NCBI GenBank assembly: GCA_900317625.1
Contig: ONHK01000013.1
Coordinates: 1-63,423, forward strand
From: an uncultured Treponema sp.
GTDB taxonomy: Bacteria; Spirochaetota; Spirochaetia; Treponematales; Treponemataceae
Length of the DNA: 63,423 bases
Direction of reading: 5' to 3'
Shown: in pieces, positions 10,222 to 22,890 of the stretch
Layout of the letters: the number at the start of each line of letters is the position of its first letter
Numbering within the stretch: position 1 is the stretch's first letter
Made by a program: the position numbers and the translations under genes
The notes under the pieces: model-generated
What the model was told of the DNA's origin: nothing
The model's database searches: none
What the model saw: the letters and a program-made list of their open reading frames with translations, nothing else

Positions 10222-10244
10222 TTTGGATTTTATTCGAGGTAGAA

Positions 10245-11087
10245 ATGAAAAAATATATTGTTTTTATGTTTCTTGCAGTGATGACGTTTACAGCTTGCGC
10301 CCAGAAAAAATCAAATGCTGCCGTTGGAAAAAATGATTCATCTGTTGACGTTCAAAAGACTGAAAATCCGGATTTTGCGAAAATTGATGAAATTCTTTCA
10401 AAAATGTCAGCGCGTGCCCAGGAAGAAATTGTTATTTCTGACAAAAATGAATTCCTTTCTGACCTTTACAATGTTCTTGCGGAAGAAAAAAAATACCGCA
10501 GCGACGATTTGAACCTTTACTATCTTATTGATAAAAAACATACAGTTTCTTCAAGTTATGTTCCAAAAGATTTGGTTCCACTTGTAAAAAATGAATTTTA
10601 TTCAATAAACCGCAATGATCTTTCGCTTCGCCCTGATGTTGAAAAAGCATTGCGCGAAATGGCAAAGGCTTCCCTGAATGATGGAATCCGGCTGCTTGTA
10701 AGTTCAACTTACCGTTCCTATGAATATCAGAAAAATCTTTTTGCCTATTGGGTAAAAGTTGACGGTCTGGAGGAAGCTGAACGGGAAAGCGCTCGACCGG
10801 GAACAAGCCAACATCAGCTTGGTGTTGCAATTGATTTTGGCTCAATCACAGACGATTTTGCGGATACAAAAATGGGGCAGTGGATTTACAAAAATGGTGA
10901 TAAATTCGGCTGGAGTCTTTCTTTTCCGAAGCAATATGAGGATATAACCGGGTACCGCTGGGAAAGCTGGCATTTTAGATATATTGGCATTCCGGCCTGC
11001 CAGATGCAGAAAAAATGGTTCTGCGGTGTTCAGCAGTATATGCTGGAATTTATTGATTTGTGGAAGCAGTATGAGCTTGTTCAGTAA
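10245..11087 (+). CDS. Lipoprotein D-alanyl-D-alanine carboxypeptidase, M15/VanY type
   Basis: MKKYIVFMFLAVMTFTAC gives a lipobox at Cys18, so the protein is exported and anchored. The peptidase domain (about residues 110-270) has the M15B zinc motifs: TSQHQLGVAIDF (SxHxxGxAxD) and ESWHFR (ExWH). VanY-type enzymes cleave the terminal D-Ala from peptidoglycan stem peptides. It is 280 residues long, normal for the family. It follows fusA by 23 bases with GAGGTAG as Shine-Dalgarno, so it may be read with it, but the functions are unrelated. Confidence 0.88.
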   Translation: MKKYIVFMFLAVMTFTACAQKKSNAAVGKNDSSVDVQKTENPDFAKIDEILSKMSARAQEEIVISDKNEFLSDLYNVLAEEKKYRSDDLNLYYLIDKKHTVSSSYVPKDLVPLVKNEFYSINRNDLSLRPDVEKALREMAKASLNDGIRLLVSSTYRSYEYQKNLFAYWVKVDGLEEAERESARPGTSQHQLGVAIDFGSITDDFADTKMGQWIYKNGDKFGWSLSFPKQYEDITGYRWESWHFRYIGIPACQMQKKWFCGVQQYMLEFIDLWKQYELVQ

Positions 11088-11164
11088 TTTACGATGAAAA
11101 AATTGTAAAAATGCGTTTAATGTTATTGACATAAAACGTGATTTTTTATATATTATTTTCACCT

Positions 11165-11246
11165 GCGGCGATGTTGGAATTGGTAGACAAGCAAGGTTGA
11201 GGTCCTTGTGTTGCAAGACGTGCAGGTTCAAGTCCTGTTCGCCGCA
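11165..11246 (+). tRNA. tRNA-Leu (GAG)
   Basis: An 82-base cloverleaf. Acceptor GCGGCGA pairs with TCGCCGC, discriminator A. The D-loop contains GGTAGAC. Anticodon stem CAAGG/CCTTG encloses loop TTGAGGT, anticodon GAG. A long class II variable arm as expected for Leu precedes the T-loop GTTCAAGTC. No CCA is encoded. A strong terminator follows after ten bases. Confidence 0.95.
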
Positions 11247-11256
11247 CTTGTCAAAG

Positions 11257-11284
11257 GGAATGCTTTAAGCATTCCTTTTTTTTT
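11257..11284 (+). terminator. Rho-independent terminator after tRNA-Leu
   Basis: GGAATGC, loop TTTAA, GCATTCC, then nine T. It separates the tRNA from argS. Confidence 0.9.
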
Positions 11285-11302
11285 GAAAAATGGAGTTTTA
11301 CT

Positions 11303-13129
11303 ATGGCTGATGTGAAATCTGCAATGAGAAAAGTTGTTTGCAAAGCGCTCAACGATTTTATGGCAACAAAGGGCGGGGATTCTGTTGATGAGGAAAAAAT
11401 TGTGGTTCAGACTACTCCGAATCCGGAAATGGGCGACCTTGGAGTTCCGATGTTTGCTTTTGCAAAGGCTTTGCGCATGGCGCCTCCGCAGATTTCAGCT
11501 GAAGTTGTAAAAATCATAAATGAAAAATATTCAGGCGAGGCGAAAACTTGCGGTGAATTTGCCGCTGTTGGTCCGTATGTGAACCTGAAGCTTAACAAGG
11601 CTGACCAGGCTGGCTCAATCCTGAAAAAGATTTTTGAGCAGGGCGAAAAGTACGGTTCTTTGAATGAAGAAGGAAAACCTTTCCTTGACGGCAGAAAAGT
11701 TATGATTGAATTTTCTGCTCCTAACACAAACAAGCCGCTTCATCTTGGACATTTAAGAAATGACGCGCTCGGAGAATCTGTAAGCCGCATTCTGAAAGCC
11801 GCCGGCGCTGAAGTTCAGAAGGTGAATCTTGTGAACAACAGAGGCGTTCACATCTGCAAAAGCATGCTTGCCTACAAGTGGTTCCACGAGGCTAAAGGCG
11901 AAACTCCGGAATCATTGGGAATAAAGGGCGACCATTTTGTCGGCCAGTGCTATGTTGAGTTCGACCGCTGGCTGAAAGGCGAGAAGGACAAGCCGGAAAC
12001 AGCTCATCCGGAGGCTCTTGCTCAGGCAGAGGAAATGCTTGTCAAGTGGGAAGCCGGCGACCCGGAAGTTCATGCTTTGTGGAAGAAAATGAACGACTGG
12101 ACAATCAGCGGAATCAAGGAAACTTATGCGCGCACCGGCGTTTCTTTTGACCGGTTCTATTTTGAAAGCGAAACGTACTTGAAAGGAAAGGATGAAATCC
12201 TGAAAGGCCTGGAAAAAGGCATTTTCTTCAAGGCGGAGGACGGCTCTGTTCGCATTGATGTTACAGATGTTGTAGGCAAGGGAAAAGACGAGGACAGCCA
12301 CGAGAAAGTTCTTCTGCGCAAGGACGGAACTTCTGTTTATATTACCCAGGATATTGGAACTGCAATCAGCCGACATGCGGACTGGCCTTTTAACCAGCTG
12401 GTTTATGTAGTTGCAAGCGAGCAGAACTATCATTTCAAGATTTTGTTCTATATTTTGAAGAAACTCGGCTTTGACTGGGCTGAAAAACTTTATCATCTGA
12501 GCTACGGGCTTGTGAACTTGCCTAGCGGACGCATGAAAAGTCGTGAAGGAACAATTGTTGACGCGGACGACCTTCTGGATTCCCTGCACAGCGACGCTCT
12601 GAAGGCGATTGAAGAGCGTGGCCGCGAGGCGGATGTTGATGCGGACGATGTGGCTGAAAAAGTTGCGCTTGCGGCTCTGCATTATTATCTTCTGCAGGCG
12701 ACTCCAATCAAGGATATGCTTTTTAATCCGGCGGAAAGCCTTAGTTTCAACGGAAACACAGGACCGTATCTTCAGTATATGGGCGCAAGAATCAGTTCAA
12801 TCCTGGAGAAGGCAAAAAATTCAGGTGTTAAGGCAAGTGTTGAACATTCAGACTTGTTGAAAGCGCCTGAAGAATGGGAGCTTATAAAAGCACTTGGTTC
12901 ATTCCCGGAAACAGTTGATAAAGCCGCGGAAAATCTTGATCCAAGCGTAATGGCGGCATATCTTTACGATTTGAGCAAACTTTTCAGCAAATTCTATCAG
13001 AACTGCTCAATTGTGAACGCAGAAACCGCCGAGCTTAAAAGCGCGCGCCTTTTCCTTGCGGAATGCACATTGACTGTAATGAAAAAAGCCATGAACATGG
13101 TTCTTGTTCCGTTCCTGGAAAAAATGTAG
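11303..13129 (+). CDS. argS: Arginyl-tRNA synthetase
   Basis: 608 residues. An N-terminal Arg-S additional domain (about 1-95) is followed by the class I catalytic core. It has the HIGH-type signature NKPLHLGHLRND and the KMSKS-equivalent MKSREGT near residue 413. The C-terminal DALR anticodon-binding domain ends MVLVPFLEKM. It charges tRNA-Arg. The gene stands alone between two terminators. Its GC content is visibly higher than that of its neighbours, probably codon optimisation of a well-expressed gene. The ATG is preceded by GGAG. Confidence 0.96.
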   Translation: MADVKSAMRKVVCKALNDFMATKGGDSVDEEKIVVQTTPNPEMGDLGVPMFAFAKALRMAPPQISAEVVKIINEKYSGEAKTCGEFAAVGPYVNLKLNKADQAGSILKKIFEQGEKYGSLNEEGKPFLDGRKVMIEFSAPNTNKPLHLGHLRNDALGESVSRILKAAGAEVQKVNLVNNRGVHICKSMLAYKWFHEAKGETPESLGIKGDHFVGQCYVEFDRWLKGEKDKPETAHPEALAQAEEMLVKWEAGDPEVHALWKKMNDWTISGIKETYARTGVSFDRFYFESETYLKGKDEILKGLEKGIFFKAEDGSVRIDVTDVVGKGKDEDSHEKVLLRKDGTSVYITQDIGTAISRHADWPFNQLVYVVASEQNYHFKILFYILKKLGFDWAEKLYHLSYGLVNLPSGRMKSREGTIVDADDLLDSLHSDALKAIEERGREADVDADDVAEKVALAALHYYLLQATPIKDMLFNPAESLSFNGNTGPYLQYMGARISSILEKAKNSGVKASVEHSDLLKAPEEWELIKALGSFPETVDKAAENLDPSVMAAYLYDLSKLFSKFYQNCSIVNAETAELKSARLFLAECTLTVMKKAMNMVLVPFLEKM

Positions 13130-13148
13130 AAAAACTAGATTATTTGAG

Positions 13149-13180
13149 TCAGCGGAAAATCCATTCCGCTGATTTTTTTT
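13149..13180 (+). terminator. argS terminator
   Basis: TCAGCGGAA, six-base loop, TTCCGCTGA, then eight T. The T-run is also the first part of the 25-base direct repeat that recurs at 14095. Confidence 0.9.
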
Positions 13181-13196
13181 GAAGCGTAAAAATCTC
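13172..13196. repeat. 25-bp direct repeat, left copy
   Basis: A, eight T, then GAAGCGTAAAAATCTC. An exact copy lies at 14095-14119, 923 bases away. The pair brackets the two minus-strand genes at 13218-13962. The left copy includes the U-tract of the argS terminator, so the cassette seems joined exactly at the terminator tail. Confidence 0.85.
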
Positions 13197-13217
13197 GGCT
13201 TTTGACGCTTCTTCTGA

Positions 13218-13436
13218 CTAAAGTACAAACTGTTTCATTTCTGCTTTTGTTAAAGGACGACCAAGGCGTTTTGATAAAAGAATTGCTTCGCGTAAACGGA
13301 AAATCTTTCCATCAGAAGGCTCTGTGAGTCTTGAATCAGGCATTTCTTCTCCAAATCTCATTGCAGAATCGGATTCGCAGAGTGTAATTGTGTATGTATC
13401 ACAAACGACAGGTTCTCTTTCTTTTGTTGCAATCAT
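13218..13436 (-). CDS. Small protein, second gene of a GNAT-like pair
   Basis: 72 residues, with AGGAGG properly spaced before ATG 13436. The start lies one base past the stop of the GNAT-like gene, so the two are translationally coupled. The protein has a conserved-looking core (RFGEEMPDSRLTEPSDGKIF, then a Leu/Arg-rich helix and GRPLTKAEM). I recall similar small proteins beside the same GNAT-like family in Firmicutes, but know no function. An antitoxin or accessory role is only inference from size and coupling. Confidence 0.65.
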   Translation of the reverse strand: MIATKEREPVVCDTYTITLCESDSAMRFGEEMPDSRLTEPSDGKIFRLREAILLSKRLGRPLTKAEMKQFVL

Positions 13437-13437
13437 T

Positions 13438-13962
13438 TTAAGCCTCCTCTGAAAAATATTTTTTTATGAGTGTCAAAGCTGCATAACTGTCAATAAACAT
13501 ATTCTGGTCATCGATGTTCTGTGCTTTTAAAGTCTGTCTATAATGTTCAACCAGGTTTGATTTTGCCTTGAACTGAACAAAACCTTCATTTCCTGCATTC
13601 CAGCTTAATTTGCAGGCAATTGCAAATAAATGCGCGCCAACTCCTTGGTAAATGCCGTTTTTGCCACGATTCATTGGAGCGGATTCTACTAAATCAACGT
13701 GGGTATATAATTGATCTCTGATGTGTTTTAAAGCAATCAAGCCCTGCCGTTCTTCTGAGCCTTTTATCAGGAGTTCATATATTTCATATCCATTTGAATG
13801 AGGAACACTCCAGTCAAACAGCCAGCCATTAGCCATAAGTTTTTCTGCATCAGCTTTTGTTATTGTTTTGGAGTTACGTCTGTATTGAGTGTCACATTCT
13901 TCATTTGTTGCCCGGTTCACAAGGCAATTTGTAAGACCGTCAATTTCAATACTAATTTCCAT
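13438..13962 (-). CDS. GNAT-like acyltransferase of unnamed family
   Basis: 174 residues, with TAGGAGTC before the ATG and its own promoter. The C-terminal half resembles a GNAT fold: a strand ending HVDLVESAPMN, then GIYQGVGAHLFAIACKLS (a Q/R-x-x-G-x-G/A acetyl-CoA loop), then FVQFKAKSNLVEHYRQT. The N-terminal 60 residues are unlike common GNATs. Acetyl-CoA use is inferred from that loop. The target is unknown, and a GNAT toxin is one possibility. It is co-transcribed with the 72-residue gene inside a direct-repeat-bounded cassette. Confidence 0.65.
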   Translation of the reverse strand: MEISIEIDGLTNCLVNRATNEECDTQYRRNSKTITKADAEKLMANGWLFDWSVPHSNGYEIYELLIKGSEERQGLIALKHIRDQLYTHVDLVESAPMNRGKNGIYQGVGAHLFAIACKLSWNAGNEGFVQFKAKSNLVEHYRQTLKAQNIDDQNMFIDSYAALTLIKKYFSEEA

Positions 13963-13980
13963 AGCTGACTCCTATTGATA

Positions 13981-14008
13981 ATTATAACACAAAAAAACAG
14001 TTTTGTAA
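13981..14008 (-). promoter_or_regulatory. Promoter of the GNAT-like cassette
   Basis: On the minus strand TTACAA (14008-14003), 16 bases, TATAAT (13986-13981), then TAGGAGTC and the ATG at 13962. It lies inside the repeat-bounded cassette, so the cassette carries its own expression signals. Confidence 0.65.
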
Positions 14009-14094
14009 GGTTGTAATTTTTCATAATAAATTCCGTACACAAGTTCTGCGGGTGTTTATAATATAATGAAAATGGTTGCAAAGATTTTATATGT

Positions 14095-14119
14095 ATTTTT
14101 TTTGAAGCGTAAAAATCTC
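14095..14119. repeat. 25-bp direct repeat, right copy
   Basis: An exact match to 13172-13196. It is followed by about 160 bases without a gene, rich in short TCACTGA / TCAGTG words in both orientations (14115-14240), which I cannot assign. Confidence 0.85.
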
Positions 14120-14322
14120 AGTGGCTTTTTACTGGAAACTCACTGCTTTTTTTTAAAATTTTCAGTGCGGAAAAATAAATTCTCACTGAGTTTCTGATGG
14201 ATTCTCACTGAGAATTTGCCTGCCTGCTGTGAGAACTGTTTTTTTTATTCGGGAAGCGGATTTTTTTTATTTTTTTTGAAGATTTTTATTGCCGTTTTTT
14301 AAGATGTCTTATTATCTTTAAG

Positions 14323-14595
14323 ATGTACTTTCCGGCCGGAAGTATGGAGTTCGGTTTGAACTTCAAATTTTTATCGCTAGCGGAGGTGCTTCTGGAGAAA
14401 ATGCCTCTGTTTCTGAAAAATTCAAACCGCATCAGGCTGGATAATTTTGGAATATTTAAGCTTTCATTAAGTTCAGATGGAAAGGACAGGGAAGAAGACG
14501 TTTCAGCGAATGATATAACTGCTGTGCGCGTGCTTTTTACTCCAAGTTCCAAGCTTAAACACGAAATAGCCGATGTGACCTACACAAAAAAGTAA
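14323..14595 (+). pseudogene. HU-family DNA-binding protein remnant
   Basis: The C-terminal part (RLDNFGIFKLSLSSDG...EEDVSANDI...VRVLFTP) is the beta-arm half of the long HU-like proteins found in Bacteroides and Treponema, which bend DNA. The usual N-terminal half is missing: about 35 residues are lost before AGSMEFGLNF. A short out-of-frame ATG at 14304 reads MSYYL then a stop. Removing one T there would give MSYYLKMYF in frame, as in intact relatives. So the gene appears to have both a one-base frameshift and an internal deletion. A short product from ATG 14323 (90 residues) is still possible, but no Shine-Dalgarno is seen. Confidence 0.6.
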
Positions 14596-14646
14596 ACGCA
14601 GCTTTTTGGGTGGTGGTTAGAAAAATAATTTATTGAATATTACTCT

Positions 14647-14788
14647 TTGAACTGCAAATCAGTTCAAATAAAATTAAATGATTTAATTTGCGGCCGTGCT
14701 TTCCAATAAAAGCTTAAAAGCATAGCCCTGAAAGAAAAGATAAATCTCCAGACAAGCCTGAAAAGGCCGCTGCTGGAGATTTTTATTT
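14647..14788 (+). terminator. Hairpin cluster downstream of the HU remnant
   Basis: Two perfect 8-bp hairpins come first: TTGAACTG/CAGTTCAA at 14647-14667 and AAATTAAA/TTTAATTT just after. A longer stem follows, AAATCTCCAG (14742-14751) with CTGGAGATTT (14773-14782), and then T-rich sequence. The last is a plausible terminator. The rest of this 390-base gap holds no gene that I can support. Confidence 0.45.
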
Positions 14789-14886
14789 TAAAAGCAAAAT
14801 CCTAGTCCTGCGCAGAAAACTGCCGAATTGAAGTCCGAACCGGATTTTTGATATGATTTTGAAGATGAATTTTTATTTGCTTGCTG

Positions 14887-14926
14887 AAAAAAAAATGGAG
14901 ATTTCATAGTTTCCTTGAAATCTCCA
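14887..14926 (-). terminator. Terminator of the left lipoprotein gene
   Basis: On the minus strand TGGAGATTTCA, nine-base loop, TGAAATCTCCA, then nine T. It follows the stop of the minus-strand lipoprotein by about 60 bases. The inversion locus is therefore bounded by a terminator on this side and by another at 17709-17742 on the other. Confidence 0.9.
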
Positions 14927-14984
14927 CAAGATACAGTTAAAGCCGACTGCTTTTATAATTTTTACAAGGCTTCGTTTGTATGTT

Positions 14985-15968
14985 TTAGTTATGAATTTCC
15001 TGTTCCCAGATTATTATATCAGAATCAGGTGCGTAAGCAGCTTTGATATATGAATCTTTAGGGAAGTTCCATGTTCCAGAAACAGTTGCATCTTTATGAA
15101 CCATAGCATATTTTCCGAGTTTTGCTTCCTGAACTACAAATGACTCAAGCGTATTTGAGTTAGAAATCACTTTAGAAGTTCCTGAAGCTGCATCTGAGCT
15201 TGATTTTAATGTTACTTTGTAAGATCCGTTTGTAATTCTTTTTACTTTTGTAGTAGTTCCGTCTTCGTCTTCATCATCAACTTCTGTGATTGTGCCTTTT
15301 TTCAGGTATTCACCATAATTGTCTTTTGTTATTTCTGTTTCGCCGGAAAGTACTGTCAAATCAATGTATACTTTTAAGATTCCGTCATCACCAAGAGTAT
15401 AAGAACCTGCAGGAATATCTGTCCATGATTTTACAATCTCATATTCTTTTGCGGAGTTGGCTTCTACACCCCATTTTTCCGTCTCAGATTCGCTTACATC
15501 AAAATCACCGGCATTTGTTGAAAAATCATTTACTGTGCCTTTCTTTCCTCGAACACCTGTATAGTATGAAATAAAATACTGAGGTTTTTTATTGTAATAT
15601 CTTACTCCAACTTCGCAGAATGAATAAGGTTTGTCATCAGAGCCTTTTCCGATTTGGTTGAAAATATATCCCATTGTATATTTTCCGGTTGATTTTTTAG
15701 TATCAATTGTAATTTCGCAATCTGCTGCAAGATGTTTAGTTGCTGTGCTTATATAAGCCCTTTTGTATTCAACATCAGTGTCGTTTGTATAGCCACCTTT
15801 TTCAATCTGGGTGATGATTCCATCTTCGTCTTCATCTGTTTTACATCCCGCAAAACCAAACACCAATGCAGCGGCAACTGCACTACTTAAAAGAACCTTT
15901 AGTGTGTTTATTGTCTGCGTATTATAAAAAATACGGGCTTCCTCCCGTTTCCCAAATTTTGAAAACAA
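14985..15968 (-). CDS. Left lipoprotein of the inversion locus (apparently silent state)
   Basis: From the shared block onward the frame reads KVLLSSAVAAALVFGFAGC, a lipoprotein signal with lipobox FAGC, then about 285 residues starting KTDEDEDG. The mature part resembles the right-hand protein: GGYTNDTDVEYK against VGYTNDSDVTYR, both with TKH soon after, and similar closes (GKYAMV..IIIWEQ against GFYAAV..VIEWED). No ATG precedes the block in frame. The only upstream start is TTG 15968, with a non-signal leader, and no promoter is seen. A terminator-like hairpin lies just upstream. I read it as an unexpressed gene body that gains promoter, Shine-Dalgarno and ATG when 15843-16809 inverts. Confidence 0.7.
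   Translation of the reverse strand: MFSKFGKREEARIFYNTQTINTLKVLLSSAVAAALVFGFAGCKTDEDEDGIITQIEKGGYTNDTDVEYKRAYISTATKHLAADCEITIDTKKSTGKYTMGYIFNQIGKGSDDKPYSFCEVGVRYYNKKPQYFISYYTGVRGKKGTVNDFSTNAGDFDVSESETEKWGVEANSAKEYEIVKSWTDIPAGSYTLGDDGILKVYIDLTVLSGETEITKDNYGEYLKKGTITEVDDEDEDGTTTKVKRITNGSYKVTLKSSSDAASGTSKVISNSNTLESFVVQEAKLGKYAMVHKDATVSGTWNFPKDSYIKAAYAPDSDIIIWEQEIHN
15843..15900. repeat. 58-bp inverted repeat, left arm (candidate crossover site)
   Basis: The reverse complement is identical over all 58 bases to 16752-16809. It encodes the end of the signal peptide and the lipobox Cys of the left lipoprotein. The reading frame is conserved across the repeat in both genes, so exchange anywhere inside keeps both proteins in frame. 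Confidence 0.95.
15924..15948 (-). terminator. Possible minus-strand terminator before the silent lipoprotein
   Basis: On the minus strand ACGGG, loop AGGAAG, CCCGT, then an A/T-run rich in T (15930-15924). The stem is only five bases but GC-rich. It would stop read-through into the left lipoprotein in this orientation and into the right one after inversion. Confidence 0.4.
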
Positions 15969-16013
15969 ATAGAAATTTCCTGTATCTTTTTATTCAAAAA
16001 AGGTGAGGAAAAA

Positions 16014-16664
16014 ATGACGTACGGCTATATTCGTGTAAGCACAGATAAGCAGACTGTGGAGAATCAGCGTTTTGAAATAAGGCGGTGGTGCGGAATCCAT
16101 AATATTCTTATTGACGGCTGGATTGAAGAAACTATAAGCGGAACAAAGAACTACAGAAAGCGGAAGCTCGGCTCGCTGCTCGGAAAAATCAGGAAAGACG
16201 ATACAATAATCTGCACGGAGCTTTCGAGGCTCGGAAGAAATTTCTTTATGATTATGGAAATTCTGAATATCTGCATCGCGAAGGAATGCAACATCCGGAC
16301 AATAAAAGAAAATTTCATCCTTCAGAATGACATCCAGTCAAAAATTCTTGCTTTTGCGTTTTCCATAAGCGCGGAAATAGAACGCCAGCTCATAAGCCAG
16401 AGAACAAAGGAAGCGCTTGCCGCCCGCAAAGCTTCCGGCAAAAAACTTGGAAGAATCCCCGGAAAAAGAGGCCGGCTGAACCAGAAATGCGTTTCGCAGA
16501 GCAAAAAAATAAATTCCCTTCTGGCCGCAGGAACGCCAAAATGCAGAATCGCCCACGAGATAGGAGTTTCCGCCGGAACCTTCTACCGCTACCTTGTCTA
16601 CACAGGCAAATTCATTCCGGAAAATCGCCGCTCCGAAAAATGGAAATCAGGAATCTATAAATAG
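16014..16664 (+). CDS. Serine DNA invertase, Mpi/Hin-type
   Basis: The start ATG follows AGGTGAGG. 216 residues: a catalytic resolvase/invertase domain with YIRVSTDKQTVENQRF (catalytic Ser9, Arg7), ETISGTK, and ELSRLGRN (Arg72, Arg75). The long E-helix reads LAFAFSISAEIERQLISQRT (about 112-131), followed by a GRIPGKRGR linker and a C-terminal helix-turn-helix (about 165-195). The sequence closely recalls the Bacteroides master invertase Mpi, which flips promoters. Such enzymes cut both strands at paired inverted sites through a phosphoserine link. The gene lies inside the 58-bp inverted repeats, so these are its probable substrates. A weak promoter (TTGAAA, 18 bases, TATCTT, 15959-15988) precedes it. 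Confidence 0.9.
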   Translation: MTYGYIRVSTDKQTVENQRFEIRRWCGIHNILIDGWIEETISGTKNYRKRKLGSLLGKIRKDDTIICTELSRLGRNFFMIMEILNICIAKECNIRTIKENFILQNDIQSKILAFAFSISAEIERQLISQRTKEALAARKASGKKLGRIPGKRGRLNQKCVSQSKKINSLLAAGTPKCRIAHEIGVSAGTFYRYLVYTGKFIPENRRSEKWKSGIYK

Positions 16665-16680
16665 AAGACTTTTTTTAATA

Positions 16681-16708
16681 TTGACAATTTTTCTTATGAA
16701 AATATAAT
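16681..16708 (+). promoter_or_regulatory. Strong promoter at the right end of the invertible segment
   Basis: Consensus TTGACA (16681-16686), 16 bases, consensus TATAAT (16703-16708), followed by GAGGAG (16728-16733) and ATG 16741. All of this and the first 11 coding bases lie inside the invertible segment. It is the only good promoter near either lipoprotein. Confidence 0.85.
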
Positions 16709-16740
16709 TAAAGAAAAACTCAAAAAAGAGGAGAAAAAAA

Positions 16741-17679
16741 ATGAAACTTTCAAAGGTTCTTTTAAGTAGTGCAGTTGCCGCTGCATTGGTGTTTGGTTTT
16801 GCGGGATGTGCGGATAATGAAGATGAGCACAATATTCTTTATGTAAAAGGCGATACTGCTTATATTGGTGATTCAGGCAACGATTCTGTTGGATATACAA
16901 ATGACAGCGATGTGACTTACCGTGGATTCAGAACTCTAAAGACAAAGCACACTGATGCTGTTGCAATTTTTTATTTGAAAGGTGCTGAGACAGAAGATGC
17001 TTCAGAGCGTACTGGAGTTCTTGGATATGTATTTGATTTGAACAAAGATAAGAAAGTAAGGAATGATGCAGGTGACTCAAAAACTGTTTATGATTTCACG
17101 GCTGTTTCTTTGAGAAAGAATGGAGATAAAATTCAGGCATATATTTCTAGATTTGAAGGCGTTGATCCGTCTAATATGGATGGTGGAAATAACTTTAAAG
17201 ATGTGAATGGTGATGAACTTAATTCAACTGGTAAAGTTATTGGTGAGCATAATGCAAAAGAAACTGAATACTTGAAGGGTGCTTCTGGTGCTTATGCAAC
17301 TCTTGGAGGAGTTACTAAGGATGCTGATGGATATTATAAAGTTGCTGTAGAAGTTACAGCAGCTGCTTCTGGTGTTTACAGTGTAAAATTCTATGACGGA
17401 AATGATGCTACTGCAGAAGAAAAAGGTGAAACAAATGATGCTGGCGATACTGTAAAAACAGGACAGATTAAAGCTGGTGCAAAAGTTTTGACTATTGCTG
17501 GAAATACAACTTCAAACCCTGTAACAATTGATGCTTCTTGGAAGGCAGATGGCTTGTCTAAACCAAAACAGACAGATATGGGCTTTTATGCTGCTGTTTA
17601 TCCAAAGAAAACTCTTGAAGGTAAAATTCAGCTTCCATATATCTTGAATGAAGACGAAGTAATCGAGTGGGAAGACTAA
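16741..17679 (+). CDS. Right lipoprotein of the inversion locus (expressed state)
   Basis: The protein begins MKLSKVLLSS and has a lipobox FAGC (Cys23). The mature part of about 290 residues is acidic and Gly/Asp/Lys/Thr-rich, starting ADNEDEHN. It shares scattered motifs with the left-hand protein (GYTNDSDVTY, TKH, a closing WED), so the two are diverged paralogues with the same export signal. It has a strong promoter, GAGGAG Shine-Dalgarno and its own terminator. The family is unknown. A lipidated surface or periplasmic antigen is the simplest reading. Its expression should depend on the orientation of the upstream segment. Confidence 0.8.
   Translation: MKLSKVLLSSAVAAALVFGFAGCADNEDEHNILYVKGDTAYIGDSGNDSVGYTNDSDVTYRGFRTLKTKHTDAVAIFYLKGAETEDASERTGVLGYVFDLNKDKKVRNDAGDSKTVYDFTAVSLRKNGDKIQAYISRFEGVDPSNMDGGNNFKDVNGDELNSTGKVIGEHNAKETEYLKGASGAYATLGGVTKDADGYYKVAVEVTAAASGVYSVKFYDGNDATAEEKGETNDAGDTVKTGQIKAGAKVLTIAGNTTSNPVTIDASWKADGLSKPKQTDMGFYAAVYPKKTLEGKIQLPYILNEDEVIEWED
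16752..16809. repeat. 58-bp inverted repeat, right arm (candidate crossover site)
   Basis: An exact inverted copy of 15843-15900. Near its middle is a smaller palindrome, TGCAG-TTGCCG-CTGCA (16770-16785), a plausible dimer-binding core for a serine recombinase. Confidence 0.95.
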
Positions 17680-17708
17680 TTTTCATTTCTAGTTTTTAGA
17701 GAAAAAAG

Positions 17709-17742
17709 CTGCTTTTGATATTTTTCAAAGGCAGTTTTTTTT
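17709..17742 (+). terminator. Terminator of the right lipoprotein
   Basis: CTGCTTTTGA paired with TCAAAGGCAG (one G-T wobble), then eight T. Confidence 0.85.
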
Positions 17743-17756
17743 GTGTGGTATATTTT

Positions 17757-18734
17757 TTATTTTATAGAGAATGCTGTTCCCAAATTAAAATCAATGTTAA
17801 GAATAGAAGATGATGTCGGCTGGTTTTCAAATTTTGTAAGAATATCGCTGTATTCGTCTGCATATAAATCTCCGTAGTCAGAACTGCCTGATATAATTGA
17901 AAATTCTGAAAAGATTTTAAATTTCTTTTTTATTCTGTATTCTGCTTTCAATGTGGTTTTTAATTTTGAAAAATATCCGTACTGAACATCGCAGTAATGC
18001 ACATTTGCAGAAGACTTGTGATGCGTGTCAAGCGAATACATATATGCGAACGGTGAAATGAAAAGTCCCGTTTTTATGCTGAATTTTTCTATTGGCATAT
18101 AGTAAAATTCAAATCCAAAAAATGTAAAAAATGTGTGTCTATAATAATCTATGTCGCGGATTTTTTTTGCTTTCCGGGCGAGAGGGTCATTCCAAGCCAC
18201 ATCATAATCTCTTGGGATTTTTGCGTATTCCTTAGCACCGTACCAGCCATAGCCATCGTGTGCATTGAAATTTTGAAACATATATTGCGCTTGTACAGCC
18301 GGCTCAAATCTGAAAATCGATAATTGCGGAGTATGGTAAGAAATTTCAAGTTGTGTGTCAAAACTTTGCTTTAAATCACATTCGCTTATTGTGTACGTTT
18401 TTTTTAATCCTGAAAGATTCCAGTCTGAATCGTACATATTGCCTGTGCGTAAGGGCAGGCCTGCGCTGAATTGAGCAGATATAAAAAAGTTAAAAAATGT
18501 TATATCTGTTCCTATTCCGAATTCATAAATATTTTTTTCTTCCCAGTCTAGTTTACTGACTTTCGTGTTTGTGCTGCCAAGATAGATTGACTTTGAAATC
18601 TCTCCATATTTTATTCCTGAAAAAACTGAAAAATCTATTTTTAGTCTGTCTTTTGAAAAAGCCGGTTTGTGCATAAAAGCGGTCAACAAAATGAATGACA
18701 GGATAAATGCAATACGATTATTTCTTTCTACCAT
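17757..18734 (-). CDS. Omptin-like outer-membrane protease
   Basis: 325 residues with a signal peptide (AFILSFILLTAFMHKPAFS), then a barrel rich in aromatic strands. Omptin landmarks are present: IKYGEISKSIY, KLDWEEKN, GLPLRTGNMYDSDW with the paired aspartates (Asp102, Asp104) of the active site, and LDTHHK with the Asp-x-His pair (Asp236, His238). These match OmpT Asp83/Asp85 and Asp210/His212 in order and spacing pattern. Omptins are surface barrel endopeptidases that cleave host or bacterial proteins at basic residues. Overall identity looks low, so specificity is open. The final residues (NLGTAFSIK) lack a terminal aromatic. TATAAT lies eight bases before the ATG. Confidence 0.72.
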   Translation of the reverse strand: MVERNNRIAFILSFILLTAFMHKPAFSKDRLKIDFSVFSGIKYGEISKSIYLGSTNTKVSKLDWEEKNIYEFGIGTDITFFNFFISAQFSAGLPLRTGNMYDSDWNLSGLKKTYTISECDLKQSFDTQLEISYHTPQLSIFRFEPAVQAQYMFQNFNAHDGYGWYGAKEYAKIPRDYDVAWNDPLARKAKKIRDIDYYRHTFFTFFGFEFYYMPIEKFSIKTGLFISPFAYMYSLDTHHKSSANVHYCDVQYGYFSKLKTTLKAEYRIKKKFKIFSEFSIISGSSDYGDLYADEYSDILTKFENQPTSSSILNIDFNLGTAFSIK

Positions 18735-19013
18735 ATGTTTTTATTATAGAAAAGACTGTGTTTTTTTGCTACCAATAGCTTGTTTTCTAAAAGATTGTGG
18801 AATTTTAAATTTAATTCTGCATAAAAATAATTGACACGAAAAGATTTTGCCGTCCTTTTGTAATTCATTTCCGTTCCTTCACTATACTTGCGGCTCTGCA
18901 AATACAGTAATGCAACGCCTCGCTTTATGTCCGTAGAATACTACCGAACAAGTCCATAGCAGCCTCTGAATTGTTTCCATAACGCGGTTTATTTCCTTTC
19001 CGTGCGACACCCA

Positions 19014-19188
19014 GCTGACTAACTAGTAAGTAGGGTGCTGATTAGCCTAATCAGCGGTGTACTGATTAACCTAATCAGCAGTCTGTTGATTAACTAGTCA
19101 GCGTTCTGATGATTAGTTAATCAGTGCTGCGCTGACTAGTTAATAAGCATCATGCTGATTTGCTAGTCAGTGGCATGCTGATTAAAAC
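19014..19188. repeat. Array of 23-bp-period palindromic repeats
   Basis: Seven full units and one half unit. Each is an 18-19-bp imperfect palindrome close to GCTGAYTARYYTARTCAGC, separated by 5-6 variable bases (for example AGGGT, AGTCT, GTTCT, GCTGC, ATCAT, GGCAT). Starts are at 19014, 19037, 19061, 19085, 19108, 19131, 19154 and 19177. It ends about 90 bases before the Shine-Dalgarno of the interrupted Rpn-type gene. Function unknown. The 280 bases before it (18735-19013) contain nothing that I can assign. Confidence 0.85.
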
Positions 19189-19274
19189 TAAAACTGGCGG
19201 TGAAAATTTTCTCGATTTTTTTGTGATTCATTTCCATTTTTGCAATTTTTCCGCGATAAATATCCGGAGGCAAG

Positions 19275-19364
19275 ATGAGGTACGAATCAAAAAAAATACG
19301 AGGATTTGTTTTTCACGGACGGCTTTCTGTTCAGCAAGATAATGCGCGAGCCGGAAATCGCGAA
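19275..19364 (+). pseudogene. Separated 5' end of the Rpn-type nuclease gene
   Basis: GGAGG at 19266-19270 and ATG 19275 begin MRYES, followed by an A8 tract. Beyond the tract, in the neighbouring frame, the DNA encodes KYEDLFFTDGFLFSKIMREP and then departs from the family at 19365. The last 76 bases recur at the start of the full copy at 20216. It is the natural start of the downstream gene, cut off by an inserted toxin-antitoxin segment. The A8 tract also puts ATG and body out of frame; seven or ten A would restore it. Confidence 0.7.
19289..19364. repeat. 76-bp direct repeat, left copy
   Basis: It matches 20216-20291 at 74 of 76 positions, without gaps. The two copies flank a toxin-antitoxin pair plus a dispersed intergenic repeat (about 850 bases). 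Confidence 0.9.
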
Positions 19365-19399
19365 AGATTCGTCTCTTTTTATATTGTTATTTGACAAAT

Positions 19400-19822
19400 A
19401 TGAATCCAAGTGCATATAATAAAGTTGTATGGGAAGTTGCATCATCATACGAATATGATAAGTGGTTCAGTTCTTTAGACGATGAATCTAAAGAAGCTGT
19501 ACTGGAACGAGTTTTGCTTTTGCAGCGCTTAGGACCGAATCTTCCTAGACCTTATGCAGATGTGCTGCATGGCAATAAAAACCATTCTAATTTGAAAGAA
19601 CTTAGAAATAGAACTAAAAATCATATTCTTAGAGTTGCATATTATTTTGATTCTGAGCGTAAAGCGTTTTTGCTTACTGGTGGTGACAAAAAAGGAAAAG
19701 ACCAAAATAAGTTCTACAAAAATCTTATTGCTGAAGCTGAAGGAATCATAGCAATCCACGAAAAAGGTCAGGAGGAAAAAAATGAAAAATGCCGTAAAAA
19801 TGATGGAATCGCAGATGTCTGA
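19400..19822 (+). CDS. HigB/RelE-type toxin (Gp49-like)
   Basis: 140 residues from ATG 19400; a TTG three codons earlier is the alternative. Family features are VVWEVASSYEYDKWFSSLDD, LGPNLPRPYADVLHG, LKELRNRTKNHILRVAYYFD and a closing KKGKDQNKFYKNLIAEAEG. These match the phage-derived Gp49-like branch of RelE/HigB mRNA interferases. It overlaps the antitoxin gene by about 40 bases, in toxin-first order as in higBA. A consensus TTGACA and TATAAT overlap the start region, so the exact start is uncertain. The extra 30 residues at the C-terminus are charged and probably unimportant. Confidence 0.82.
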   Translation: MNPSAYNKVVWEVASSYEYDKWFSSLDDESKEAVLERVLLLQRLGPNLPRPYADVLHGNKNHSNLKELRNRTKNHILRVAYYFDSERKAFLLTGGDKKGKDQNKFYKNLIAEAEGIIAIHEKGQEEKNEKCRKNDGIADV

Positions 19823-20081
19823 AGACTCTGTTCGGCGTGCCCGCCTGAAGTCTGAGCAGGAAATTCTTTCAATCCATCTTGCTCAGCTTCGTGAAGAGCA
19901 AAATGTAAAACAGTCTGAAATGCAGAATTTTACACAGACAGCTGTTTCAAAAATTGAAAAACGCAAAGACATAAAAATCTCTACCCTTATTGACTACCTT
20001 GATAGCCTTGGAATGGGACTGGAAATCGTTGCTCTTCCCAAAACTGCAGAAACTGCGGAAAAAGTGCTTTTAAAAATATAG
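19782..20081 (+). CDS. HigA-like XRE antitoxin
   Basis: 99 residues, with CAGGAGG seven bases before the ATG. The helix-turn-helix is at about residues 34-75 (REEQNVKQSEMQNFTQTAVS, then KIEKRKDIKISTLIDYLDSL), typical of antitoxins partnering Gp49-like toxins. It would bind the toxin and repress their promoter. The gene overlaps the toxin and lies entirely between the 76-bp direct repeats. Confidence 0.82.
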   Translation: MKNAVKMMESQMSEDSVRRARLKSEQEILSIHLAQLREEQNVKQSEMQNFTQTAVSKIEKRKDIKISTLIDYLDSLGMGLEIVALPKTAETAEKVLLKI

Positions 20082-20109
20082 GAAAAAATCTCTCGCTTTT
20101 TTTTGCGAT

Positions 20110-20205
20110 TGAACCAGTAAAAGTGCGGAGCACCCGGATTAATACAAGCGGAGCGCGAGCCAAATCCATCTGGAGCAAACTGGAAATCTGACGGAAGCGA
20201 TTTTT
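20110..20205. repeat. Dispersed intergenic repeat, copy A
   Basis: About 80% similar to 57090-57192. Shared landmarks are ATACAAGCGGAGCGCGAGC, TCTGGAGCAAA, TGGAAATC and AAGCGATTTTT. No ORF lies in either copy. It probably belongs to a small non-coding repeat family of this genome. Confidence 0.7.
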
Positions 20206-20215
20206 CAGAATTTGT

Positions 20216-20291
20216 AAAAAAAATACGAGGATTTGTTTTTCACGGACGATTTTCTGTTCAGCAAGATAATGCGCGAGCCGGAAATCGCGAA
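20216..20291. repeat. 76-bp direct repeat, right copy
   Basis: The partner of 19289-19364. Here the A8 tract is preceded by a stop codon in the nuclease frame, so this copy lacks the ATG of the left one. Confidence 0.9.
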
Positions 20292-20979
20292 GGGAGTTGT
20301 GGAAAGCCTGCTTGGAATCAAGGTCGGAAAGATTGAGTTTCTGACGTCGCAGTATTCGCTGGGCGAGCTTTACGACGGACGCGGAGTCAGGCTGGACGCA
20401 TATCTGGAAGATTCCGACAGAATTCTGGACATTGAAATGCAGATTGTTGTCAGGGCGGACGAAGGGCTGCGCATGCGCTACTACCAGAGCATAATCGATG
20501 TGGAAAACCTTGGCCGCGGAGAAAGCTACCGCAGGATGAAGGAATCTTATATCATTTTCATATGCCTTGCAGACCCGTTCGGCGACAGGATTCTGAATGA
20601 CAGAATCCACAAAGTGATTTATAATGCAAGCGACTTCGCGAAGGCGGAGAATCCGGTGGTGCGCTCGTTCCTGAAGTTCCTGAAAAACCGCTCCGCGTCG
20701 GACGCCATAACCCGCCGAATCCAGGCCGAAGTCGAGGTGTGCAAGAGCCACCAGAAATGGAGGGCAGAGTATATGCTGTGGGATGACCAGGTGCGCGAAT
20801 GGAAAGAGGAAGCCCGCGAGGCCGGACTGTCGGAAGGCAGGAAAGAAGGCGCGAATAGCAAAGCTGTTGAAACCGCCCGGAATCTTTTGAAGATGGGGCT
20901 TGGCTCTCCAGAGCAGATTTCCGCCGCGACAAATCTTCCTATAGAAGAAGTTCTGGAAATAAAACAGAAACTTGAATGA
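20233..20979 (+). CDS. Rpn-family PD-(D/E)XK nuclease / putative transposase body
   Basis: The body of a recombination-promoting-nuclease type protein. It has FFTDDFLFSKIMREPEIAKG, the nuclease core VRLDAYLED..RILDIEMQI (the D...E-x-Q form of the PD-(D/E)XK motif), MRYYQSIID, YIIFICLADPFG and a C-terminal helical tail ending EEVLEIKQKLE. 248 residues from TTG 20233, the first possible start. The true start is at 19275, across the inserted segment. Rpn proteins cleave DNA and raise recombination. GC is higher than in the flanks. Probably expressed poorly or not at all as it stands. Confidence 0.75.
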   Translation: MFFTDDFLFSKIMREPEIAKGVVESLLGIKVGKIEFLTSQYSLGELYDGRGVRLDAYLEDSDRILDIEMQIVVRADEGLRMRYYQSIIDVENLGRGESYRRMKESYIIFICLADPFGDRILNDRIHKVIYNASDFAKAENPVVRSFLKFLKNRSASDAITRRIQAEVEVCKSHQKWRAEYMLWDDQVREWKEEAREAGLSEGRKEGANSKAVETARNLLKMGLGSPEQISAATNLPIEEVLEIKQKLE

Positions 20980-21125
20980 AATTCGGCCTGGCTAGAATGG
21001 GTGTGTTTGCTTTTTTAGTTACCCCTTGCTAACCTTTTATTGTGATAAAAAATACTTAGTGGTAATATTCTGTAGGAAATTTTAAGGAAATTCTTTGCCG
21101 TTTTGGCGGCAGTTTGGGGGATTAA

Positions 21126-21827
21126 ATGATCTACACTGCAGAAGTAGAACACATGTGTCCTTTGGCAAAAGGCGCATATCATGGACCGGCTCCTATTCCG
21201 GAAGAAGGAAAATGGGTTCAGGTTAAGGAAATTAAAGATGTTTCTGGTTTTACACACGGAGTTGGTTGGTGTGCACCACAGCAGGGTGCCTGCAAACTTT
21301 CTTTGAATATCAAAGACGGTATTATCGAAGAAGCTCTTGTTGAAACAATCGGTTGTTCTGGTATGACTCACTCAGCTGCTATGGCTTCTGAAATTCTTAT
21401 CGGAAAAACATTGCTTGAAGCTTTGAACACTGACCTTGTTTGCGATGCAATCAATACTGCTATGCGCGAACTTTTTATGCAGATTGTTTATGGTCGTTCT
21501 CAGTCTGCTTATTCTAAGAACGGTCTTAAAGTTGGTGCATCTTTGGAAGACCTTGGAAAAAATCTTCGTTCTCAGGTTGGAACTATGTTTGCAACTCGCA
21601 AGACTGGTCCTCGCTACCTTGAAATGACAGAAGGTTATGTTGAAACTATGGCTGTTGATAAGGATAATCAGGTTATTGGTTACAACTGTATTAACTTTGG
21701 TAAATTGATGGATGCTCTTAAGGCTGGAAAACCTGCTAATGAAGCTATTGAAGGTGCACGAACTCATTATGGTCGTGTGACAGAAGATCAGGGCATGGTA
21801 AAACTCATTGACCCTCGCAAGAACTAA
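21126..21827 (+). CDS. NifU-like iron-sulphur scaffold protein
   Basis: 233 residues, with GGGGGA before the ATG. Cysteines in GWCAPQQGAC and TIGCSGMTHSAAMAS match a NifU/IscU-like N-terminal fold, in which clusters are assembled before transfer. The rest lacks the NifU C-terminal domain. It is followed 25 bases later by the GGGtGRT gene, a pairing that I recall in Treponema and some Clostridia. A hairpin (TGCCG..CGGCA) lies about 15 bases before the Shine-Dalgarno. The two genes probably form one well-translated operon; the codon use is markedly regular. The client of the scaffold is unknown. Confidence 0.75.
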   Translation: MIYTAEVEHMCPLAKGAYHGPAPIPEEGKWVQVKEIKDVSGFTHGVGWCAPQQGACKLSLNIKDGIIEEALVETIGCSGMTHSAAMASEILIGKTLLEALNTDLVCDAINTAMRELFMQIVYGRSQSAYSKNGLKVGASLEDLGKNLRSQVGTMFATRKTGPRYLEMTEGYVETMAVDKDNQVIGYNCINFGKLMDALKAGKPANEAIEGARTHYGRVTEDQGMVKLIDPRKN

Positions 21828-21852
21828 GTGTAGGAACGGAGGAATATAGAAT

Positions 21853-22890
21853 ATGTCATTGTTTGAAGATTTTGAAGGCCGTATCCCACAGGTAAACAAG
21901 GCTCTTAAAGAATATGGTTTTTCTGAAGGCGAAAAAGGACTTCAGGAAGCGCGTGACCTTTGCAAGGCTCGCGGTTTTGACCCTTATGAAATTTGTCAGT
22001 CTACACAGCAGATTTGTTTTGAAGATGCTAAATGGGCTTACGTTTTGGGTTCTGCAATTGCAATCAAAGAAGCTGAAAAAACTGGCGACAAGACTGGTTC
22101 AACAGCTGCTGCAAATATCGGAAAAGGACTTCAGGCATTTTGTTTGCCAGGTTCCGTAGCTGATGACCGCAAAGTTGGTCTTGGTCACGGAAATCTTGGT
22201 GCTCGTCTTCTTTCTGAAGAAACTCAGTGCTTTGCTTTCTTGGCAGGTCATGAATCTTTTGCTGCTGCAGAAGGTGCTATTAAAATTGCTGCGAATGCAA
22301 ACAAAGTTCGCAAGAACAAGCTTCGTGTAATTTTGAACGGTCTTGGAAAAGATGCCGCTCAGATTATCAGCCGTATAAATGGTTTTACTTATGTTCAGAC
22401 ACAGTTTGACTATTTTAACGGAGAAGGAACAGACAAGGCTTTGAAGGTTGTAAAAGAAGTTCCTTACGGAAACAATCCGGAACGTCTTATCGTAAAGTGC
22501 TACGGTGCTGATGATGTTCGCGAAGGTGTTGCAATCATGTGGCACGAGGATGTTGATGTTTCTATCACAGGAAACTCTACAAACCCAACTCGTTTCCAGC
22601 ATCCAGTTGCAGGTACATACAAAAAGGAACGCTTGCTCGCTGGCAAGAAATACTTCTCTGTAGCTAGTGGTGGCGGTACAGGTCGTACACTTCACCCAGA
22701 TAACATGGCTGCAGGTCCTGCTTCTTACGGCTTTACAGATACTTTGGGTCGTATGCACTCAGACGCTCAGTTTGCAGGTTCTTCTTCAGTTCCTGCTCAC
22801 GTAGAAATGATGGGCTTCATGGGAATGGGCAACAACCCAATGGTCGGCTGCACAGTAGCATGTGCTGTAGCAGTAGCTGGTTCATTCTAA
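21853..22890 (+). CDS. GGGtGRT protein
   Basis: 345 residues with GGAGG before the ATG. It carries the signature for which the family is named, SVASGGGTGRTLHPDNM, near residue 280, and several conserved glycine-rich stretches (GLGHGNLGARLLSEETQ, MGFMGMGNNPMVGC). The close is ACAVAVAGSF. Cysteines at the ends could hold a metal cluster supplied by the neighbouring scaffold. The biochemical role is not established. Length is normal. The 3' end is partly duplicated downstream at 23016. Confidence 0.85.
   Translation: MSLFEDFEGRIPQVNKALKEYGFSEGEKGLQEARDLCKARGFDPYEICQSTQQICFEDAKWAYVLGSAIAIKEAEKTGDKTGSTAAANIGKGLQAFCLPGSVADDRKVGLGHGNLGARLLSEETQCFAFLAGHESFAAAEGAIKIAANANKVRKNKLRVILNGLGKDAAQIISRINGFTYVQTQFDYFNGEGTDKALKVVKEVPYGNNPERLIVKCYGADDVREGVAIMWHEDVDVSITGNSTNPTRFQHPVAGTYKKERLLAGKKYFSVASGGGTGRTLHPDNMAAGPASYGFTDTLGRMHSDAQFAGSSSVPAHVEMMGFMGMGNNPMVGCTVACAVAVAGSF

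Follow-up and report, generated by a model that had tools for sequence, protein, structure and literature searches.

A candidate invertible switch between two lipoprotein genes of an uncultured Treponema, with crossover sites in signal-peptide codons

A candidate invertible switch between two lipoprotein genes of an uncultured Treponema sp. (assembly GCA_900317625.1, contig ONHK01000013.1, positions 1-63,423; this whole stretch of 63,423 nucleotides is called the window below) has its closest described counterparts in surface-protein switches of Mycoplasma and Ureaplasma. In the vsa system of Mycoplasma pulmonis (HvsR), inversion places one promoter and a 5' coding part before otherwise silent surface-protein genes (PMC2268961, PMC4534519). 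The two designs are alike in that inversion moves, or in Treponema would move, one promoter and start, and the other gene lacks both, although the left frame of the Treponema locus keeps a TTG. They differ in that vsa employs a tyrosine recombinase, has several silent genes and moves 714 nt of coding sequence, whereas the Treponema locus encodes a serine invertase with a resolvase domain, has two such genes in its genome (2.31 Mb, 36 contigs, 88% complete) and confines the shared part to the signal peptide; no constant part would remain in the mature protein except a Cys. In Ureaplasma parvum, opposed surface-protein genes (mba/UU376 and UU172/UU171) carry an inverted repeat in the 5' coding region, and alternating expression of UU172/UU171 was shown at the DNA and protein level (PMC3047005). 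The recombinase of that system is unproven, XerC/RipX-type tyrosine enzymes having been named, and one UU172/UU171 arm is intergenic; in contrast, the Treponema locus encodes a serine invertase within the segment and belongs to another phylum and another protein family.

The invertase in the window bears the NCBIfam family name of Mpi from Bacteroides fragilis, which governs surface molecules by promoter inversion at no fewer than 13 scattered promoter segments (PMC4747536, PMC5903667). Unlike Mpi, it is encoded inside the segment, and crossover would fall in coding DNA and lead to two alternative products. Salmonella Hin is likewise encoded inside its invertible segment (PMC5903667). Among treponemes, homologues of the hsdS/psrA-type inversion system were reported in Treponema medium and T. 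denticola (PMC4948785), psrA being termed a tyrosine recombinase (PMC7096588). This system also inverts between gene parts and was already proposed for treponemes, whereas its targets are restriction-modification specificity genes, not lipoproteins, and it has no signal-peptide crossover. Other variation described in treponemes includes repeat slippage in T. pallidum (PMC11868660) and gene conversion of tprK, the latter by titles cited in PMC4534519, and two T. pallidum strains showed no gene inversions between them (PMC3373638). We found no inversion switch of treponeme surface proteins, lipoproteins included, in the mostly open-access literature searched; as this did not take in the chief survey of inversions that alter genes, the result is not proof of absence.

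Hin and phage Gin share with the Treponema locus a serine invertase with its own invertible segment. In Salmonella Hin/fljBA the segment carries a promoter, the crossover lies outside coding DNA and the second gene is controlled through a repressor, and Gin exchanges C-terminal protein parts. At the Campylobacter fetus sap locus, a promoter segment flips between opposed S-layer genes that share 5' sequence; this inversion depends on RecA and involves no serine invertase. Gene-altering programmed inversions and intragenic invertons (Milman 2023, Chanin 2024) reportedly have the crossover inside coding sequence, judging by titles. The switching principle is already known from vsa and Ureaplasma mba; what appears to be new here is the serine invertase within the segment, the spirochaete host and the crossover confined to the signal peptide.

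We propose that the locus is an invertible switch, in which an Mpi-family invertase recombines signal-peptide repeats and moves the single strong promoter of the locus, its ribosome-binding site and ATG between two lipoprotein genes, and we put the probability of this reading at roughly 0.85. The invertase encoded in the window would recombine two identical 58-bp sites within signal-peptide codons, and inversion would exchange which of the two bodies receives the promoter, the ribosome-binding site and the ATG. In each orientation one gene would be expressed and the other silent. The crossover would leave the mature proteins unchanged: the last codon of the repeat is that of the lipobox Cys, the would-be mature residue 1, and this Cys is all of the repeat that both products would retain. 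Both products may be carbohydrate-binding (ConA-like) surface proteins, and their alternation would vary the cell surface. The locus contains the following features (coordinates within the window, strand, description):

14897-14925, minus: terminator hairpin followed by a T-run, 3' of the left gene (-15.4 kcal/mol, z-score -5.2)
14985-15842, minus: left lipoprotein, mature body after Cys plus stop, predicted silent in the present orientation (open reading frame (ORF); 61 proteins at E <= 1e-5; fold model)
15843-15900, minus: left repeat arm, signal-peptide residues up to the lipobox Cys
15901-15968, minus: silent leader MFSKFGKREEARIFYNTQTINT, with TTG at its start and no Shine-Dalgarno sequence seen; inside the invertible segment
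15933-15948, minus: terminator-like hairpin ACGGG-AGGAAG-CCCGT plus T-run, pointing at the silent gene (consensus scan; folding z-score only -1.5)
15959-15988, plus: weak promoter-like site TTGAAA-18-TATCTT, 9/12, at chance level, which could serve the invertase (consensus scan)
16014-16664, plus: gene for a 216-aa serine DNA invertase of the Mpi family (NCBIfam and Pfam matches; aligned to Gin and Tn3/gamma-delta resolvase chains)
16681-16708, plus: promoter TTGACA-16-TATAAT, 12/12, inside the invertible segment, 3' of the invertase gene
16727-16733, plus: Shine-Dalgarno sequence AGAGGAG, 7 nt upstream of the ATG
16741-16751, plus: active start, 11 bases from the ATG to the repeat, inside the invertible segment
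16752-16809, plus: right repeat arm, ending exactly at the lipobox Cys codon 16807-16809
16810-17679, plus: right lipoprotein, mature body after Cys plus stop, predicted active in the present orientation (ORF; 65 proteins at E <= 1e-5; fold model)
17701-17742, plus: terminator hairpin 3' of the right gene (-21.3 kcal/mol, z-score -5.3)

An earlier note on this DNA had described 58-bp perfect inverted repeats in two divergent lipoprotein genes that have diverged in sequence, each arm encoding the same part of a signal peptide in the same frame, and our analysis bears this out. The two arms are complementary at 58 of 58 nt and lie 851 nt apart. When the 12 kb around the locus (10000-22000) were resampled 20 times with an order-1 Markov model, the longest exact inverted repeat within 2 kb ranged from 11 to 15 bp, and a chance origin of the repeat was thus rejected. 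Sequence likeness stops abruptly beyond the arms, with 22 of 60 bases matching outward and 14 of 60 inward. In the right gene, which runs from the ATG at 16741 to the stop at 17679, the repeat extends from the third base of codon 4 to the TGT of Cys23 in the lipobox (MKLS followed by KVLLSSAVAAALVFGFAGC); the left gene is read through the repeat in the same frame. With up to three mismatches allowed, the genome of the window contains just two copies of a 30-base part of the repeat. No further copies were found in 195 other genomes of the genus (45 bp, up to three mismatches), and no exact match to the 30-base part was present in viral contigs. A dyad inside the repeat pairs at 8 of 13 positions, and the best one in the corresponding repeat of a sister species (G009, see below) pairs at 6 of 13 and lies elsewhere in the repeat; we claim no core site.

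The left open frame (14985-15968, minus strand) has 327 codons from the TTG and reads MFSKFGKREEARIFYNTQTINT-LKVLL...FAGC. After the Cys, the left and right bodies are 25.8% identical over 279 aa. Both signal peptides end in ...LVFGFAGC, in which the Cys is invariant across a 61-row alignment and position -3 is Phe. Phe at this position is permitted by the relaxed spirochaete lipobox only. Neither lipoprotein has a Pfam match above cut-off or an NCBIfam match at E <= 0.1, and a 16-row family profile detected no members beyond these two in the genome of the window. Fold models of both bodies are lectin-like (predicted local distance difference test 84.2 for the left and 85.4 for the right body), and, judged from the best 50 matches of a fold comparison, both are predicted to be ConA-like lectin sandwiches.

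The gene between the repeats encodes a serine recombinase with Ser9, as the earlier note had recognized. Its product scores 285.4 bits on the NCBIfam model PRK13413/NF009949 of the Mpi family (cut-off 272), and residues 3-144 form a full Pfam Resolvase domain (4.6e-34). Ser9 stands opposite Ser9 of Gin, and Arg7 and the SRLGR motif (71-75) also align with Gin, the first residue of the motif being Ser in the invertase and Asp in Gin. The aligned Ser and Arg residues have catalytic roles in serine recombinases. A C-terminal HTH_7 match at 168-194 (E 0.00092, 19.7 bits) is under the Pfam cut-off of 23.8 bits. The frame is open throughout, and the gene is apparently intact. A second Mpi-like invertase with 55% identity is encoded elsewhere in the same genome (contig C23:52123-52713, L184) and adjoins a lipoprotein-like ORF of 828 aa; the 11-kb stretch examined there yielded no inverted repeats of at least 18 bp.

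The single consensus promoter, Shine-Dalgarno sequence and ATG that the earlier note had placed on the side of the right gene were confirmed. All three serve the right gene only; neither such a promoter nor an ATG precedes the left gene, whose frame still opens at its TTG. In a 3.2-kb scan (14700-17900), the promoter is the sole 12/12 sigma-70-like site. The scan returned four promoter-like sites against a shuffle mean of nine, thus the weight lies on the quality and place of the match. As for the strong terminators that the earlier note had placed at both gene ends, both outer hairpins fold well, although neither is among the 10 terminator-like sites of the consensus scan (shuffle mean 2.5), a list that includes stems within the repeat arms themselves, with a poor T-run. 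No RNA element matched Rfam at the gathering threshold in 14700-17900.

Further support for inversion comes from public proteins. Searches of a protein collection with each of the two bodies and with the 16-row family alignment yielded 156 distinct representatives, whose leaders were tabulated per body cluster (single linkage at 60% identity). Seven left-type fragments without a leader region (P0027-P0033) were left out, and proteins starting with MVFGFAG (seven left, one right, two of cluster 4), which may be silent alleles or contig-end starts, were not counted as states. The exact active leader of the window, MKLSKVLLSSAVAAALVFGFAGC, begins 30 of the 156 representatives, spread over at least nine kinds of body (clusters 1, 2, 4, 5, 6, 10, 13 and 14, and the singleton P0052), which suggests a repertoire. 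The silent leader occurs on three bodies: the left one (P0001, one residue off the left protein of the window, on 29 contigs), the right one (P0057, 94.8% identical to the right body of the window) and one of cluster 4 (P0087). Conversely, the active leader precedes left-type bodies in seven protein clusters (P0002-P0006, P0008, P0009) that are 80-86% identical to the left body (P0002 85%, P0003 and P0005 80%). The closest of these active-leader proteins is 85% identical, so the left body was exchanged between strains or species and not within that of the window. These exchanged leader-body combinations probably arose by inversion, and the silent leader on a right-type protein together with the active leader on left-type ones supports the earlier proposal that inversion alternates two lipoproteins; that there would be no off state was likewise inferred in the earlier note.

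Other leaders, of the type M-x-x-FYVL and presumed silent, precede bodies of the right type (P0060), cluster 13 (P0051), cluster 4 (P0095, P0099), cluster 5 (P0096) and cluster 11 (P0122), each of which is also known with an active-type MKLSK leader. The bodies of P0096 (leader MTCFYVL) and P0091 (active leader) are 98.1% identical. In total, six bodies (clusters 1, 2, 4, 5, 11 and 13) are known with both kinds of leader, which, as far as protein sequences can tell, is what inversion predicts. Long contigs carry both other-leader proteins (P0060 426 kb, P0051 317 kb, P0095 536 kb) and active-leader ones (P0054 110 kb, P0085 433 kb, P0131 402 kb). Identical longest-contig figures, namely P0098/P0122 156,066, P0025/P0055 4,888, P0041/P0147 4,961 and P0037/P0114 11,340, suggest that these four protein pairs are partners on one contig. 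Among them, P0025/P0055 suggests a left body with a different partner, P0025 having the ambiguous MVFGFAG start. Leader-body partners seem to change, because the active leader is found on at least nine bodies and the silent one on three of them.

Relatives of the invertase (E 1e-40) were detected in 113 of 200 genomes of the genus and relatives of the right lipoprotein (1e-6) in 39 of 200; with the left protein as query at family level, 32 of 274 genomes gave hits, all of the same genus. Related genomes do contain similar blocks. Among 142 distinct invertase loci in 180 stretches fetched from relatives, 35 have some flanking inverted repeat of at least 18 bp (lax criteria), and in seven, assigned by eye, each arm falls on the start or leader of one of two exported-looking genes that read outward (L152, L164, L167, L169, L314, L330, L354). 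The repeats of L152 (207 bp, 97.6%) and L164 (41 bp, 88%) are located at members of the same lipoprotein family, with pair identities of 36% and 35%, respectively, and with the invertase gene between the two genes in both. The other five loci contain divergent pairs of other proteins with MKKI...FA leaders around Mpi-like invertases; these were called exported by leaders alone, one of the two L167 genes has no normal start, and four proteins from three of the loci have no Pfam match. An eighth candidate, L320, with an 18-bp, 94% repeat at two outward starts, was set aside, the two genes being unlike each other and the match probably accidental.

In the sister species (G009), an invertase on contig C19 (L145) adjoins a lipoprotein frame that opens at GTG and lacks the start of the active leader, and contig C112 encodes a lipoprotein with an active-type leader. 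The two lipoprotein genes share exactly 41 bp of leader and differ on both sides; these 41 bp are unlike the repeat of the window. Each species thus keeps its own two leader copies identical, as expected of sites still recombining. C112 begins with the end of another gene, and joining of C19 to C112 is not implied. Among the 80 top-scoring of at least 550 invertase loci, the contig stops less than 150 nt beyond the downstream end of the invertase in 19 cases and equally close on the upstream side in three; this skew is compatible with repeats near the 3' end of related invertases but says nothing on the layout in the window, and we do not count it as main evidence.

Several points weigh against the proposed switch. 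The exchanged leaders are known only as proteins, from assemblies; the M-x-x-FYVL leaders are also known as protein only, so that their silence is presumed, and protein clusters at 90% mask finer variation. An assembler may flip a segment between identical inverted repeats, and some chimeras could be artefacts. On this basis, the orientation could be fixed, with repeats kept identical by gene conversion or derived from a recent inverted copy, and with exchanged leaders representing assembly errors at the repeat. The short contigs of P0057 and P0087 (2,281 and 3,687 bp) are in line with such errors, as is the fact that 58-bp repeats exceed small assembly k-mers and that an assembly graph allows an inverted repeat to be traversed either way. 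However, reads of 100-150 bp would span 58 bp, non-active leaders are also found on contigs of 156-536 kb (P0122, P0051, P0060, P0095), six bodies have both kinds of leader, with one pair at 98% identity, and an open invertase gene lies inside the segment; we therefore regard a fixed orientation as quite improbable. In a different scenario, inversion does occur and is catalyzed by RecA-type homologous recombination or by another invertase in trans. The second Mpi-like invertase of the same genome could act in this way, and some inward-facing lipoprotein pairs have long leader repeats and no invertase in the fetched stretch. This seems unlikely, since 58 bp is short for efficient homologous recombination and an open invertase gene lies between the repeats in the window, between both genes in L152 and L164, and beside the lipoprotein gene in the sister species.

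The related loci offer further counterarguments. Common ancestry by itself can leave leader repeats in divergent paralogue pairs, so that the five loci without lipoproteins carry less weight, and L233 is a divergent lipoprotein pair with neither an invertase nor a 25-bp repeat. The majority of the 142 invertase loci did not reveal a pair of this kind, so the invertase family does other jobs as well. Of 36 stretches fetched for the lipoprotein (four further ones in the same fetches were taken for invertases), 31 contained a single lipoprotein hit, and an invertase hit was present in none; thus, the switch is a minority arrangement within the lipoprotein family. The locus could also be a simple on/off switch of the right gene, the left gene being a decayed remnant. 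A case of this kind may be seen in genome G001 (L217, 4801-6343), where a truncated left-type gene lies beside an intact right-type gene with no invertase, which we read as a decayed or fixed version of the locus. In the window, by contrast, the left frame is open for 327 codons and has its own foldable terminator, and left-type bodies carry the exact active leader in seven protein clusters, which makes a mere on/off switch highly improbable. The switch between two lipoproteins driven by the invertase of the window is the reading we retain.

The anatomy of the two-product picture drawn in the earlier note held up, whereas the picture itself proved too small given the active leader on at least nine bodies, the silent leader on three and similar designs in other treponemes. 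A wider proposal, for which we see the case as evenly balanced, is that the signal peptide serves treponemes as a site of recombination that leaves no scar. A leader conserved to the letter would be common to at least nine kinds of lectin-fold body, a portable invertase cassette with the sole promoter and start would fuse this leader to one body at a time, and partners would be exchanged between loci and strains, giving a large surface repertoire with no trace of crossover in the mature proteins.

Two other repeat arrangements were observed among the fetched stretches. Inward-facing lipoprotein pairs (L232 3344-7849, L234 1339-5194, L225 3258-6031, L165 4798-6704) have inverted repeats of 69-124 bp (97-100%) over the Shine-Dalgarno sequence, start and leader, and their stretches gave no invertase hit; in L232 and L234 the flanking genes are shared, and a block upstream is conserved on just one side. 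If they invert, these four pairs are possible body-swapping cassettes behind fixed promoters. Three invertase relatives (L147 5116-5164, L156 4933-4992, L160 3571-3614) adjoin methyltransferase-like genes starting with MIGNPPY, with inverted repeats within this N-terminal stretch, and likely represent a different, modification-enzyme switch.

In the window, the switch adjoins a gene for an omptin-like outer-membrane barrel (17757-18734, minus strand; PF01278, 5e-11). An omptin-like hit is present in 22 of the 45 stretches surveyed, which suggests that this gene and the switch form a functional pair. Further downstream, a cluster of imperfect direct and inverted repeats (19014-19184; families D2, D3, I2 and I4) surrounds CTAATCAGC...CTGATTA. 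A 76-bp direct repeat (97%) occupies 19289-19364 and 20216-20291, its second copy lying over the start of a 248-aa ORF; the first copy looks like a fragment of this gene left upstream.

A crossover in the signal peptide would remove the need for a constant mature region, and the two products may differ at every surface residue. Whether carbohydrate-binding surface proteins alternate in these spirochaetes becomes testable, the two junctions per locus being ready markers for gauging switching in metagenomes. If the wider proposal is true, the scarless leader module would give treponemes a large interchangeable surface repertoire.

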